DNA of 30,080 bases from a virus. Shown one piece after another: positions 1-30,080 of this stretch (positions within the stretch are counted from its first letter, which is position 1; the number at the start of each line of letters is the position of its first letter). The translations under genes and the position numbers were made by a program. The notes under the pieces are model-generated. The model worked only from the letters and a program-made list of their open reading frames with translations, was not told where the DNA came from and did not search any database. The DNA is taken from positions 1-30,080 of the IMG/VR virus record IMGVR_UViG_3300030106_001893; one strand, written 5' to 3'.

Positions 1-132
1 TTTATTAAGGCAATGTGGGGTTCTTGTTTGATTGGAGAAGAAATTATTAAAAAACTAACGCCTAAAATATATAAAAGACAAAAAGAACTTTTTGAAGACA
101 TAAAAAAAGATTGGAGGTTCGGCACAATGTAT
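1..132. repeat. Left copy of the near-identical terminal overlap
   Basis: Bases 1-132 match 29949-30080 without gaps except for substitutions at 9 (g/a), 36 (a/t), 48 (t/a) and 55 (c/t). Bases 56-132 are identical over 77 bases. All four differences are in third codon positions or leucine first position and are synonymous (Lys, Gly, Ile, Leu). This looks like a circular contig overlap between strain variants more than a biological direct terminal repeat. Confidence 0.9.
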
Positions 133-414
133 ACAAGCAGTATTTCAAATTTCAATATTTCAGCCGACTACCACTTAGACAGAAACAATATTAAAGAAAC
201 CGTAAATATAATATTTACAAAAAGAAATAATTCAAAAGGGGGTTGTTTAAATGTACCGGACTATAATGTTACCTTTGAACAATCGGACAATAGTATGTTA
301 GTTTATCCGGCTTGGAGAAACGTTCACGGTGTAACTCCAATTAAAAAAACATCGGATAACGGTTATAGAAACTCCTTAATATTTTACGGTTTAAAAGCAT
401 TTAAAGGAATATAA
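1..414 (+). CDS. TET/JBP-like 2-oxoglutarate/Fe(II) DNA dioxygenase, C-terminal part (gene split by the map junction)
   Basis: This is the 3' part of a gene that begins at 29562 and crosses the circular junction; the frame is open from base 1, so the ATG at 13 is internal. Joined, the protein is 266 residues. The double-stranded beta-helix core is here: the metal-binding HxD in YHLDRNN (H187 and D189 of the joined protein), then GGCLNVPDYNV, the second metal histidine in NVHGVTPI (H238) and the 2-oxoglutarate-binding arginine in GYRNSLIFYGLK (R252). This order, and the GG-L-P-Y and HG-TPI signatures, fit the TET/JBP family, which hydroxylates the methyl group of 5-methylcytosine or thymine in DNA. 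The glycosyltransferase gene directly upstream supports a DNA-modification role. Substrate is not decided by sequence. A generic 2OG oxygenase is the alternative. Confidence 0.8.
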   Translation, partial: FIKAMWGSCLIGEEIIKKLTPKIYKRQKELFEDIKKDWRFGTMYTSSISNFNISADYHLDRNNIKETVNIIFTKRNNSKGGCLNVPDYNVTFEQSDNSMLVYPAWRNVHGVTPIKKTSDNGYRNSLIFYGLKAFKGI

Positions 415-416
415 AT

Positions 417-770
417 ATGGACGAAAGTAGACACATAAAAAAAGAAAGCGTTTTAAAAGCTTTAGAAAGTAGTTTAGGAGTTGTCACAGTAGCTTGTAAG
501 TCGGCGGGGGTTCCAAGATCTACATATTACAAATGGTTAAAAGAAGATAAAGAATTTTATAAAGCGGTTAAAGATATTGAAAACATTGCCCTTGATTTTG
601 CAGAAAGTCAATTACATTCACAAATGAAAGACGGCAATACTTCGGCAACAATTTTTTATTTAAAGACTAAAGGAAAAAAACGGGGTTATGTAGAAAGAAG
701 CGAACTAGACTTATCGTCCGGCGACGATCCGATTAAAATTAACGTAAACATAAAAGGGGTTGAATATTGA
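417..770 (+). CDS. terS: Terminase small subunit (HTH DNA-binding)
   Basis: Protein of 117 residues located two bases after the preceding stop and directly before the large terminase, the standard place for the DNA-recognition subunit of the packaging motor. The N-terminal half reads as a homeodomain-like helix-turn-helix (ALESSLGVVTVACKSAGV then PRSTYYKWLKEDKEFYKAV), followed by an acidic helical region (DIENIALDFAESQLHSQM) typical of phage small terminases that oligomerise. The C-terminus is short and polar. Role: binds the packaging site in concatemeric phage DNA and loads the large subunit. Identification rests on the HTH pattern, size and synteny. Confidence 0.85.
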   Translation: MDESRHIKKESVLKALESSLGVVTVACKSAGVPRSTYYKWLKEDKEFYKAVKDIENIALDFAESQLHSQMKDGNTSATIFYLKTKGKKRGYVERSELDLSSGDDPIKINVNIKGVEY

Positions 771-2070
771 AGCTAATTTTACTCACACACAAGAACAAGC
801 AATAACTTATTTGTTTGACAAAAATACAACCGAAGTTTTATTTGGAGGAGCTGCCGGTGGTGGCAAATCTTGGGTTGGTTGTAGTTGGTTGATATTGATG
901 TCTTTAAAATATCCGAAGACAAGATATTTAATGGGGAGGTCAAAGTTAGATAGTTTAAAAAAAACAACCTTTAACACTTTTTTAGAAGTCTGCGAAACTT
1001 GGAATATAAAAGCCGGTAAACATTATAATTTTAACGGAGGTTCTAATGTTATTACTTTTTATAATAGATCGGAAATTATTTTAAAAGATTTGTTTTTATA
1101 TCCGAGCGACAGAAACTTTGACAACTTGGGTTCTTTAGAAATAACCGGCGCCTTTATAGACGAAGCAAATCAAATAACAGAGAAAGCTAAAAACATAGTA
1201 GCGTCGAGGATGCGTTATAGACTCGATGATTATAATATAATTCCTAAATTATTAATGACTTGTAACCCCGCAAAAAATTGGGTTTACACTCAATATTACA
1301 GACCATCAAAAGAGGGTAAACAAAAACCTCATAGAAAGTTTATTCAAAGCTTGGTTGATGATAACGAGTATATTTCTAAATATTATAAAACTCAATTACA
1401 AACTTTAGACGAATTAAGTAAACAAAGATTATTATTTGGAAATTGGGAATATGACGCAAGTAAAGATAATTTAATAGAATATGACGCTATTATAAATATG
1501 TTTGAACAAAAAGGAGTTGAGGGCGAAAAATACATTAGTTGTGATGTTGCGCGTTTTGGTAGCGATAAAACCGTTATTATGTTATGGGAGGGGTTATATA
1601 TTAAAAAAATACAAACATTGCTTAAAACGTCTATAAATGAGGTTGTGGACGCTGTTAGGCAAATGCAACAAAACCATCAAGTTAATTTAAGAAATATTAT
1701 TGTAGACGAAGATGGAGTTGGTGGAGGGGTTAAAGATTATTTAAGATGTCAAGGTTTTGTAAATAACGCAAGACCAATAAAAGGGGAGAACTATCAAAAC
1801 TTAAAAACACAATGCTACTATAAATTAGCCGACTTAATTAACAAAGGACAAATTGGAATTAATTGTAATGATATAAATATTAAAAACAATATTATAGAAG
1901 AGTGCGAACAAGTTAGAACTAAAGACGCTGACAAAGATAACAAACTACAAATTATTCCAAAAGAAACGGTCAAAGATATCATTGGAAGATCGCCGGACTT
2001 TTCCGACGCTTTAGCTATGCGTATGTATTATGAAATTGATCAAACTTTCGGAAAATATTATGTACAGTAA
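760..2070 (+). CDS. terL: Terminase large subunit (ATPase-nuclease packaging motor)
   Basis: Protein of 436 residues with all hallmarks of TerL. The ATPase half has Walker A GGAAGGGKS (residues 29-37), Walker B ITGAFIDEA (128-136) with the DE pair, and coupling motif LLMTCNPAKNW (164-174). The RNase H-like nuclease half starts around 255 with ISCDVARFGSDKTV (D262), then IIVDEDGVGG (D316/D318) and SPDFSDALAMR (D413/D416), the three acidic positions that bind metal. It docks on the portal and pumps DNA into the prohead, cutting concatemers. The start used is TTG at 760, overlapping the terS stop by 11 bases; the first ATG in frame is far inside, so a non-ATG start is needed, though the exact codon is uncertain. 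Confidence 0.96.
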   Translation: MNIEANFTHTQEQAITYLFDKNTTEVLFGGAAGGGKSWVGCSWLILMSLKYPKTRYLMGRSKLDSLKKTTFNTFLEVCETWNIKAGKHYNFNGGSNVITFYNRSEIILKDLFLYPSDRNFDNLGSLEITGAFIDEANQITEKAKNIVASRMRYRLDDYNIIPKLLMTCNPAKNWVYTQYYRPSKEGKQKPHRKFIQSLVDDNEYISKYYKTQLQTLDELSKQRLLFGNWEYDASKDNLIEYDAIINMFEQKGVEGEKYISCDVARFGSDKTVIMLWEGLYIKKIQTLLKTSINEVVDAVRQMQQNHQVNLRNIIVDEDGVGGGVKDYLRCQGFVNNARPIKGENYQNLKTQCYYKLADLINKGQIGINCNDINIKNNIIEECEQVRTKDADKDNKLQIIPKETVKDIIGRSPDFSDALAMRMYYEIDQTFGKYYVQ

Positions 2071-28298: not shown

Positions 28299-28856
28299 AT
28301 GAAATTAAAAGTAAACGAAATAAAAGAAAACATAAGCAATCCAAGATTAATAAAACAAGATAAGTTTAAAAAATTAGTTCAAAGTATAAAAGACTTTCCG
28401 GAAATGTTAGATTTAAGACCGATTGTTATTGACGAAAATAATATTATACTTGGAGGAAATATGAGATTTAAAGCTTGTGTTGAAGCGGGAATTAAAGAAG
28501 TACCGGTTAAAATTGCTAAAGGATTGACGGAAGAACAAAAACAAGAATTTATTGTAAAAGACAATGTAGGTTTTGGTGAGTGGGATTGGGATATTTTAGG
28601 AAACGAATGGGATAACAAGAAGCTGGGAGATTGGGGTATGGACGTATGGCAACCGGAGGAAGAGGTGGACTATTCTGTTTTAGATGATATTGATTTAGAA
28701 GAAACATTAGAGAACAAACAAGCCGGAGTTAAAAGAGCTATAATGATAGAGTTTGACGCCGAACATTATGAAGAAGCAAATAATCTAATAACACAAGCAA
28801 GAAACGAAAAGAAAAATATAGGTTTGATGATTTTGAATTTATTTAAAAATGCCTAA
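28299..28856 (+). CDS. ParB/Sulfiredoxin-like nuclease-fold protein of the DNA-modification cluster
   Basis: Protein of 185 residues. The ParB N-terminal fold is seen in LKVNEIKENISNPRLI, KFKKLVQSIKDFPEMLDLRP, IVIDENNIILGGNMRFKACV (GGNMRFKA at 52-59 is the GxxR-like motif) and EAGIKEVPVKI. A domain with EEQKQEFIVKDNVGFGEWDW and WGMDVWQPEE follows, as in phage ParB domains fused to or paired with DNA modification enzymes. Here there is no methyltransferase part. It overlaps the glycosyltransferase by 8 bases and is the first gene of a block with TET/JBP-like enzymes; in such clusters ParB-like proteins are thought to guide or process modified DNA. Role is inference. Confidence 0.75.
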   Translation: MKLKVNEIKENISNPRLIKQDKFKKLVQSIKDFPEMLDLRPIVIDENNIILGGNMRFKACVEAGIKEVPVKIAKGLTEEQKQEFIVKDNVGFGEWDWDILGNEWDNKKLGDWGMDVWQPEEEVDYSVLDDIDLEETLENKQAGVKRAIMIEFDAEHYEEANNLITQARNEKKNIGLMILNLFKNA

Positions 28857-29565
28857 AGTTTTTGCATTATATTACGATAGATTTAACGACGCGACAACTT
28901 CGGAAGCTTTATTTGAAGCCGGTATTGAACACAATATATTATGCCATAACAATAAAAACAAATTTAAAAATATATACGGAATAATAAACGAATCAAATAA
29001 ACCTAAAGGAATACAAAACAATTTTAATTTTGGTTTAGATTTATTGTTTGATAATGAGTGGGGTATTTTTATTTCTGATGATTATAAAAAAAGTTATAAG
29101 ATAGATCGACAAAAAAACAAATTTGTAGAATGTGAATTAAAATATGTTTACGATCAACTTTGTAAAACAATAAAGTTAGCAGATAAAATAGGAGTTAAAC
29201 TTGTAGGTTTAAATTCAACGGGAAACATTTTATATGCTAGTAAAAAATATGGTAAATACGGATTAGTTGACGGAAGACTTTTCGCAATAAAAAAAACTGA
29301 GTTTAGATGGCGAGACGATATATCTTGCATAACAGATTATTATGCTACAATATACCATTTAAATAAATACAAAGGAAATTTAATATTACAAGATTGTTAT
29401 GCAGATTTTGAAAGATACGGAGCCGGAGGGATTGGAACTTTAGAAGAAAGAGCAAACGACAAAAAAAAAGATATACTTATTTTAAAGAATTTATATCCCA
29501 ATAACGTAATAGTAAAAGACAAGAAAGGACAACCAAAAGGAACACACATAAAAATAAAAAGATGA
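28849..29565 (+). CDS. TET/JBP-associated glycosyltransferase (GT-A-like, TAGT)
   Basis: Protein of 238 residues. Features of a GT-A-type enzyme: a starting strand PKVFALYYDRFNDATTSEAL, NFGLDLLFDNEWGIFISDDY with acidic pair D77-D78 where such enzymes bind metal and nucleotide sugar, NILYASKKYGKYGLVDGRLF, then RDDISCITDYYATIYHL and RYGAGGIGTLEERANDKKKD. Together these agree with the glycosyltransferase family found with TET/JBP oxygenases (TAGT), which transfers a sugar to hydroxymethylated pyrimidines. Its stop overlaps the dioxygenase start as ATGA, so the two are made in fixed ratio. The sugar and target base are not deducible. Confidence 0.72.
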   Translation: MPKVFALYYDRFNDATTSEALFEAGIEHNILCHNNKNKFKNIYGIINESNKPKGIQNNFNFGLDLLFDNEWGIFISDDYKKSYKIDRQKNKFVECELKYVYDQLCKTIKLADKIGVKLVGLNSTGNILYASKKYGKYGLVDGRLFAIKKTEFRWRDDISCITDYYATIYHLNKYKGNLILQDCYADFERYGAGGIGTLEERANDKKKDILILKNLYPNNVIVKDKKGQPKGTHIKIKR

Positions 29566-30080
29566 AAACAATAAAACTAAACAAAGTCGAGCATAACACT
29601 ACAATAGGAGAGAAGTGCCCTTATTACGAACCAAACATTAAAGAAGATTGTTTTTTAGAACTAGACGGAGAAATTATTGGTTTTTATATAAGCGACATTT
29701 CTAAATATAGTAAAAAGTTAAGTTTATTATTAGCGGTAGCCGATAAAGAATTTAGAAGTGATAATGTTCCGAAAAGCTTGATGAACTCAAGACTTTTAAC
29801 AAAAGGTTATGATGATAAAGGTAAAGCAATATATCAATATAATTCAAGACAATATAGCACAATTTTAGGATCTATCGCTCCAAAAGCACATCTAAGAAGA
29901 CCATATCCAACTATTTCTTCAACGCATAGAGAAAAGAAAGCAAAAACTTTTATTAAAGCAATGTGGGGTTCTTGTTTGATTGGTGAAGAAATTATAAAAA
30001 AATTAACGCCTAAAATATATAAAAGACAAAAAGAACTTTTTGAAGACATAAAAAAAGATTGGAGGTTCGGCACAATGTAT
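29562..30080 (+). CDS. TET/JBP-like 2-oxoglutarate/Fe(II) DNA dioxygenase, N-terminal part (continues at 1-414)
   Basis: Starts at ATG 29562 (ATGA overlap with the glycosyltransferase) and stays open to the right end, where it continues in frame at base 133, giving 266 residues. This part holds residues 1-173: CPYYEPNIKEDCFLELDGEI, NVPKSLMNSRLL, APKAHLRRPYPTISSTHREK and FIKAMWGSCLIGEE, then KKDWRFGTMY. The N-terminal region with conserved-looking HLRRPYPTISSTH precedes the catalytic core. No methyltransferase is fused to it. The metal and 2-oxoglutarate residues lie in the other part. The gene is the last of the ParB-glycosyltransferase-dioxygenase run and directly precedes terS. Confidence 0.78.
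   Translation, partial: MKTIKLNKVEHNTTIGEKCPYYEPNIKEDCFLELDGEIIGFYISDISKYSKKLSLLLAVADKEFRSDNVPKSLMNSRLLTKGYDDKGKAIYQYNSRQYSTILGSIAPKAHLRRPYPTISSTHREKKAKTFIKAMWGSCLIGEEIIKKLTPKIYKRQKELFEDIKKDWRFGTMY
29949..30080. repeat. Right copy of the near-identical terminal overlap
   Basis: Partner of 1-132, offset 29,948. Differences from the left copy lie at 29957, 29984, 29996 and 30003 and are all synonymous in the dioxygenase frame. The final 77 bases are identical. It indicates a circular map and variant strains in the sample. Confidence 0.9.

Follow-up and report, generated by a model that had tools for sequence, protein, structure and literature searches.

A predicted minimal DNA hypermodification cassette of ParB-like, glycosyltransferase-like and TET/JBP-like genes with an exchangeable middle gene in a small marine phage

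Introduction

The pairing of a TET-type oxygenase with a glycosyltransferase and that of a ParB-like protein with a TET-type oxygenase are both already known in phages. Phage operons for C5-cytosine hypermodification combine a C5-methyltransferase, a TET enzyme and glycosyltransferases. The cassette described here resembles them in its TET-type oxygenase and predicted DNA glycosyltransferase, but it is without a C5-methyltransferase, has a single transferase and is linked to ParB and terminase genes. The TET-associated glycosyltransferases (TAGTs) of family PF20691, represented by the beta-glucosyl-HMC-alpha-glucosyltransferase of T2/T6, are comparable in their GT2-related GT-A fold, their occurrence in phages and their base-oxidation partner (PMC13216743), although the protein studied here lies below PF20691 detection. 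In kinetoplastids, base J is made by JBP1/2 and the J-glucosyltransferase. If thymine is the substrate of the phage cassette, both pathways would hydroxylate T and then glucosylate it, whereas the phage has a different targeting protein and a compact operon.

Also related in gene content are the ParB-TET loci of actinobacteriophages, namely Mycobacterium cluster B (Stinger, Prince), MakoManhole, Tonitrus, Ottawa and Altadena, which share a ParB gene, a related TET/JBP gene and, mostly, a position by the terminase. In those loci, the partners are an amino-acid:DNA transferase (ADDT) and/or a P-loop kinase, and the oxygenases are distant, with ~25-31% identity to the one analysed here. For the Rhodococcus phage Tonitrus, a system for thymidine hypermodification has been published (PMC11955845). 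Altadena, an Arthrobacter phage, is the only one of these actinobacteriophages with a TAGT, which is located 3' of TET in the order ParB, TET, TAGT and PIG-L deacetylase; the row of TET, TAGT and GlcNAc-type deacetylase genes (L145:4539-6828) suggests that an N-acetylated sugar is trimmed after transfer in this phage, leaving an amino sugar on the DNA. The cyanophages MED4-184, MED4-117 and P-HS2 have the same order of ParB, one middle gene, TET (45-51% identical), small terminase subunit (TerS) and large terminase subunit (TerL). Their middle gene, however, encodes an FkbM-type methyltransferase (PF05050), which predicts O-methylation and not glycosylation. As far as checked, the features that are new in the present locus are a three-gene version free of a C5-methyltransferase and the use of the middle position as an exchange slot.

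Organization of the cassette

The window, which is the whole stretch of DNA analysed here, covers the entire virus record IMGVR_UViG_3300030106_001893 of 30,080 bases. The initial annotation of this DNA had described three overlapping genes, the last of which resumes at positions 1-414, and these ORFs were found as described (Table 1). A 132-base repeat at the two ends of the record lies within the oxygenase gene. The near-identical relative 3300030118_000555 (contig L002) spans the junction and contains one intact oxygenase gene; its sequence can be aligned with 581 bases at the right end of the record and with 600 bases at the left end, and the 132-base overlap is the same. Joined in this manner, the oxygenase has 266 aa, as in L002, to which it is the same at 265 of 267 positions (stop included). 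A broken oxygenase gene or a mis-joined contig was therefore rejected, as L002 crosses the junction with the gene intact. Since the left repeat copy is the one that matches L002, the two ends of the record probably represent different strain variants. Once closed, the genome would measure about 29.95 kb. A genome of 30 kb had been considered an unusually small carrier of such a system, which was not borne out, given that relatives of 28-37 kb are common.

Table 1. Positions of the cassette genes, terminase genes and terminal repeat in the window.
Feature	Position	Strand	Remarks
ParB-like protein, 185 aa	28299..28856	+	ParB_N domain and conserved C-terminal part; PF02195 over cut-off
GT-A-fold glycosyltransferase-like protein, 238 aa, TAGT-related	28849..29565	+	S76-D77-D78 at DxD position
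ATGA stop/start overlap, transferase/oxygenase	29562..29565	+	-4 overlap
TET/JBP-like dioxygenase, N-terminal part, 173 codons	29562..30080	+	phrog_6059, E 7e-12
TET/JBP-like dioxygenase, C-terminal catalytic part	1..414	+	Pfam Tet_JBP PF12851 over cut-off
Catalytic residue codons	H187 172-174; D189 178-180; H238 325-327; R252 367-369	+	joined protein
Terminal repeat, left copy	1..132	+	agrees with contig L002
Terminal repeat, right copy	29949..30080	+	4 mismatches to 1-132
Terminase small subunit	417..770	+	phrog_309 (E 6e-11) and others; directly 3' of the oxygenase, same order in relatives
Terminase large subunit	760..2070	+	54% to Flavobacterium phage 11b, 50% to Cellulophaga phage phi10:1 terminase large subunit

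The oxygenase

The Tet_JBP model PF12851 scores 38.0 bits on window positions 1-411 alone against a cut-off of 34.9, and 39.0 bits on the intact protein of L002. The residues H187, D189 and H238 of the HxD...H iron triad and R252, the 2-oxoglutarate arginine, are present in the joined 266-aa protein where they had been proposed, and all four are invariant among 48 aligned relatives. An AlphaFold model (pLDDT 93.6, pTM 0.89) was compared with the PDB; the best 26 matches are all TET2, CcTet, NgTET1 or CMD1 (E 3e-11 to 1e-7), with FTO and AlkB ranking below these TET-type structures. The modelled double-stranded beta-helix is thus nearest to TET structures, and the structural comparison, proposed earlier as a check, places the fold inside TET/JBP. 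Because of the Tet_JBP score, the invariant triad and arginine and the TET-type structural neighbours, the oxygenase can be assigned to the TET/JBP family by profile and model, and it would oxidise the 5-methyl group of T or 5mC in DNA. The labels 'queuine tRNA-ribosyltransferase' (phrog_6059) and 'DpdA-like' are wrong for these oxygenases in light of the Pfam and structure matches. The former label is widespread on phage TET/JBP oxygenases in isolate records, and the latter was encountered once.

The transferase

Pfam (including PF20691) and PHROG profile searches gave no match for the transferase of the window, nor did a search against phage isolate records; its relatives come from environmental viral contigs alone. 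A sequence search of the PDB with the transferase profile yielded nothing convincing. The AlphaFold model is confident (pLDDT 93.3, pTM 0.91), and Foldseek retrieved GT-A enzymes from the PDB with it, TarP being first (E 6e-6, TM 0.53) and B4GALNT1 also matched. Against a viral structure library, several TET-Associated Glycosyltransferase proteins were matched with TM values of up to 0.81, together with a phage beta-glucosyl-HMC-alpha-glucosyltransferase. The proposal of a GT-A-like transferase resembling TAGTs is upheld by these neighbours. TAGTs have independently been placed at a GT-A fold adjoining GT2 in 2026 (PMC13216743).

Across a family alignment of 33 sequences, R11 and D77 do not vary, and D78, N60 and D163 hardly do; D77 and D78 belong to the DxD-like metal site. 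PF20691 is matched by 18 of the 33 aligned relatives (best 5.6e-20) and phrog_842 by 27. The subgroup of the window remains below the PF20691 cut-off of 27.5 bits (L003, 16.5; L091, 17.9), whereas the sister-group protein of L056 reaches 42.2 bits, and a profile-profile comparison of this subgroup with the TAGT-positive group gave a probability of 94% (E 1.3e-7, 162 columns). By these profile comparisons, the transferase shares common ancestry with PF20691 members without being one of them; it is best described as a distant TAGT-like protein and probably represents a sister subfamily of TAGT. It would transfer a sugar to an oxidised DNA base.

The ParB-like protein

The presence of a ParB domain in the first gene is confirmed by the ParB_N model PF02195, which scores 28.4 bits against a Pfam cut-off of 26.3. 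The protein also matches ParB phrogs as well as phrog_498, labelled 'DNA methyltransferase', and is 31% identical to the ParB adjoining TET in cyanophage MED4-184. Phage ParB-like proteins that are encoded beside DNA-modifying enzymes do not necessarily have a role in partition, and the protein of the window is a probable DNA-binding or targeting partner, judging from its domain and neighbours. Two candidates in the cyanophages were rejected. The 'DNA methylase' beside TET in MED4-184 (L006:4299-4940) is ParB-like and no methyltransferase, and the gene next to it, which was considered as a homologue of the transferase, is the FkbM-type methyltransferase. In the Bacteroides phage BS-TP3 (L148), a ParB gene is followed by genes for a methyltransferase-domain protein, TerS and TerL; DNA-modifying enzymes may generally be partnered by a ParB encoded beside the terminase.

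Conservation of gene order

The order ParB, a middle gene X, TET and terminase prevails in 136 loci. Where X is GT-like, it overlaps TET by four bases in 88 of 101 loci, and the ATGA junction of the window is not a matter of chance since the -4 overlap recurs in this manner. Transferases of the window type occur in ~50 loci and are nearly always flanked by ParB and TET; two of their contigs stop short of where TET would lie. A coupled action, in which hydroxylation is followed by glycosylation, had been deduced from the ATGA junction; this strict neighbourhood and the recurrent overlap fit such a reaction sequence. Two loci deviate from the order. One contains two tandem ParB genes and a TET gene for a divergent 303-aa oxygenase that precedes the window-type transferase (L130:1354-4139), and the other has ParB and transferase with no oxygenase ahead of the terminase (L119:2273-3692), possibly through loss of TET.

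The arrangement is widespread, is present in isolates and is not in itself new. ParB, TET and terminase occur together in the Mycobacterium phages Stinger and Prince, the Microbacterium phage MementoMori, the Gordonia phage MakoManhole, the Arthrobacter phage Ottawa and the cyanophages MED4-184 and MED4-117. The cassette genes of Tonitrus are separated from the terminase by a few kilobases, and the stretch examined around the cassette of Altadena showed no terminase. The large terminase subunits encoded behind the same cassette belong to different families.

The middle gene as an exchange slot

Occupants of the middle position were surveyed in a sample chosen by similarity to the query and were classified by sequence clustering, with GT classes set by a threshold of 35% identity. 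GT-like proteins (101 loci, single linkage), FkbM-type methyltransferases (9) and two groups of P-loop kinase-like proteins (3 + 3) were distinguished. PF05050 scored 44-48 bits in the two FkbM-type occupants examined, and the kinase-like ones had weak scores with generic P-loop Pfam models. Some loci have ParB and TET without X, and others have genes for a PLP-enzyme, an unknown protein and kinase-like proteins 3' of TET. When the class of X was mapped onto a quickly built tree of 81 oxygenases, 35 changes were needed against a possible minimum of 12, a number made unsure by several long branches and a short search.

The clearest evidence for replacement comes from pairs of close relatives, of which there are five, including L016/L022, in which the ParB proteins are 96-98% and the TET proteins 88-98% identical. 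In L036/L047, ParB (97%) and TET (98%) enclose X proteins of 27% identity; the corresponding values are 97%, 97% and 23% in L023/L025 and 98%, 96% and 24% in L017/L018. In L039/L041 (ParB 98%, TET 98%), a kinase in one contig stands where the other has a glycosyltransferase. At the nucleotide level, the contigs of these last four pairs, which come from different samples, are ~90-97% identical at the end of ParB, 42-60% over the next 60 bases and 82-97% over the first 60 bases of TET. Such a collapse of identity at the gene boundaries of close pairs shows the exchange to be a clean gene replacement. At the level of sequence, the middle gene thus behaves as a replacement slot with unrelated occupants between ParB and TET proteins of 96-99% identity, and its exchange would alter the finished base. 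A literature search, whose coverage did not extend to the main papers, found no description of slot exchange, and no priority is claimed.

Several further loci extend the range of gene content. In L063:5496-8070 and L061:1154-3913, the genes 3' of TET encode a PLP-type enzyme, the unknown phage protein phrog_3271 and a P-loop kinase-like protein, a series resembling a longer hypermodification pathway. The ParB and TET genes of a betaproteobacterial MAG (L138:7075-8004) flank a gene for an unrelated 309-aa protein with no Pfam match, which may represent a further type of tailoring enzyme. In addition, phrog_800, a 'terminase small subunit' profile of 511 positions, matches the P-loop kinases encoded in hypermodification loci, pointing to fusions of a kinase with TerS.

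Discussion

The folds, catalytic residues, operon structure and slot exchange are established by the comparisons above. It is likely that the cassette is a minimal post-replicative DNA hypermodification operon with a replaceable tailoring slot. In the proposed mechanism, the ParB-like protein would bring the enzymes to the DNA, where the TET/JBP oxygenase would hydroxylate the C5-methyl group of a pyrimidine; with thymine, the most likely substrate, the product would be 5-hydroxymethyluracil (5hmU). The GT-A transferase would then attach a sugar, taken from a host nucleotide-sugar, to the newly formed hydroxyl group. The terminase genes adjoin the cassette, and modification may take place just ahead of packaging. 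In related phages, ParB and TET are retained but the transferase has given way to a member of another TAGT-like family, to an FkbM-type methyltransferase or to a P-loop kinase, so that X would decorate the hydroxyl with a sugar here and with a methyl or phosphate group elsewhere. The modified product presumably protects the phage DNA, for example from restriction.

Regarding the base, a cytosine-C5 methyltransferase (PF00145) is carried by six of the 78 related records that were searched whole. It is absent from the record of the window, from nine isolates and from the other 72 related records, an absence that is firm for the isolates and soft for those records that are fragments. Thymidylate-synthase-family proteins (PF00303) were found in none of 28 records, and the oxygenase would replace pre-replicative hydroxymethylation of the thymidylate-synthase type. 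Among the part of the window ORFs that was scanned, no 5-hmdU DNA kinase or amino-acid:DNA transferase was recognised. In relatives, genes adjoining a homologous ParB-TET pair encode ADDT (PF18724; Gordonia, Mycobacterium) and Ploopntkinase3 (PF18751; Gordonia, Arthrobacter), both of which belong to thymidine hypermodification; the pathway is reportedly described by Lee 2018 and Lee 2022. The published assignment of Tonitrus to thymidine hypermodification points the same way. The ADDT and kinase neighbours are found in distant relatives, with oxygenases of ~25-31% identity, and extending the thymine argument from them to the window is indirect. All DNA contains thymine, which does not have to be methylated beforehand. 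Because C5-methyltransferases are rare and thymidine-hypermodification enzymes stand beside the same oxygenase in relatives, a route from thymine through 5hmU to glycosyl-5hmU appears likelier than a cytosine route, and thymine is judged to be the probable substrate with good confidence. The earlier proposal that a pyrimidine methyl group is hydroxylated can be narrowed from pyrimidines in general to, probably, thymine.

The same cassette could instead act on 5-methylcytosine and generate glycosyl-5hmC, with the substrate made by the phage, as in the few PF00145-bearing records, or by the host. Phage TETs characterised so far reportedly act on 5mC according to Burke 2021, which speaks for this route. 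The TAGTs of T2/T6, which add glucose to glucosylated 5hmC, also count in its favour (PMC13216743). Set against the scarcity of C5-methyltransferases and the thymidine-hypermodification enzymes sharing the locus in relatives, both 5-methylcytosine as the substrate and glycosyl-5hmC as the product are unlikely. A target other than DNA is the least probable of the readings weighed here: the middle enzyme would act on a host glycan, a protein or a nucleotide-sugar, leaving the oxygenase alone to produce 5hmU or 5hmC. The PDB neighbours of the transferase are indeed cell-wall and lipid glycosyltransferases, and ParB-TET loci without a middle gene exist. However, the window-type transferase is almost never found apart from ParB and TET, the -4 overlap is conserved, and a hydroxyl acceptor is all that the alternative occupants (methyltransferase, kinase, other TAGTs) have in common.

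The purpose of the mark could also differ, in that ParB might direct a few modifications to a pac-like site to be read by the terminase, thereby serving packaging or maturation and not defence against restriction. The position of the cassette directly upstream of the terminase in most loci and isolates, the site specificity implied by ParB and the ParB-methyltransferase-TerS-TerL order of the Bacteroides phage are consistent with such a role. Fast swaps of tailoring enzymes beside near-constant ParB, TET and downstream DNA fit escape from host recognition better, and the terminases behind the same cassette belong to differing families; a packaging mark is accordingly considered rather improbable. 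Within the preferred reading of a protective hypermodification operon, a more specific proposal is that ParB and a thymine oxygenase form a fixed chassis writing 5hmU, whose finishing enzyme is exchanged by recombination in the conserved flanks, such that near-identical phages switch base chemistry. This proposal is tentative, with chances a little short of even. If true, it would resemble serotype switching and would form part of an arms race with host defences that sense modifications. The finishers would comprise several glycosyltransferase families, a methyltransferase, kinases and, in relatives, amino-acid transfer, and unreported bases would be expected, e.g. 5-methoxymethyluracil in cultured Prochlorococcus phages.

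Small (30-kb) marine phages of this kind offer a natural series, otherwise alike and with a predicted difference in a single DNA base modification, from which it may be possible to learn which host defences read which modification. Specific modified bases are further predicted for culturable isolates, as is a bacterial counterpart to base J synthesis. As for the host, the terminase neighbourhoods of Flavobacterium phage 11b and Cellulophaga phage phi10:1 are without an annotated cassette. The large terminase of the window is nearest to those of these two phages (Table 1), and a ParB-GT-TET-TerS-TerL locus is present in a Flavobacteriaceae genome assembly. Together, the terminase kinship and the locus in this assembly make a host among the Flavobacteriaceae likely.
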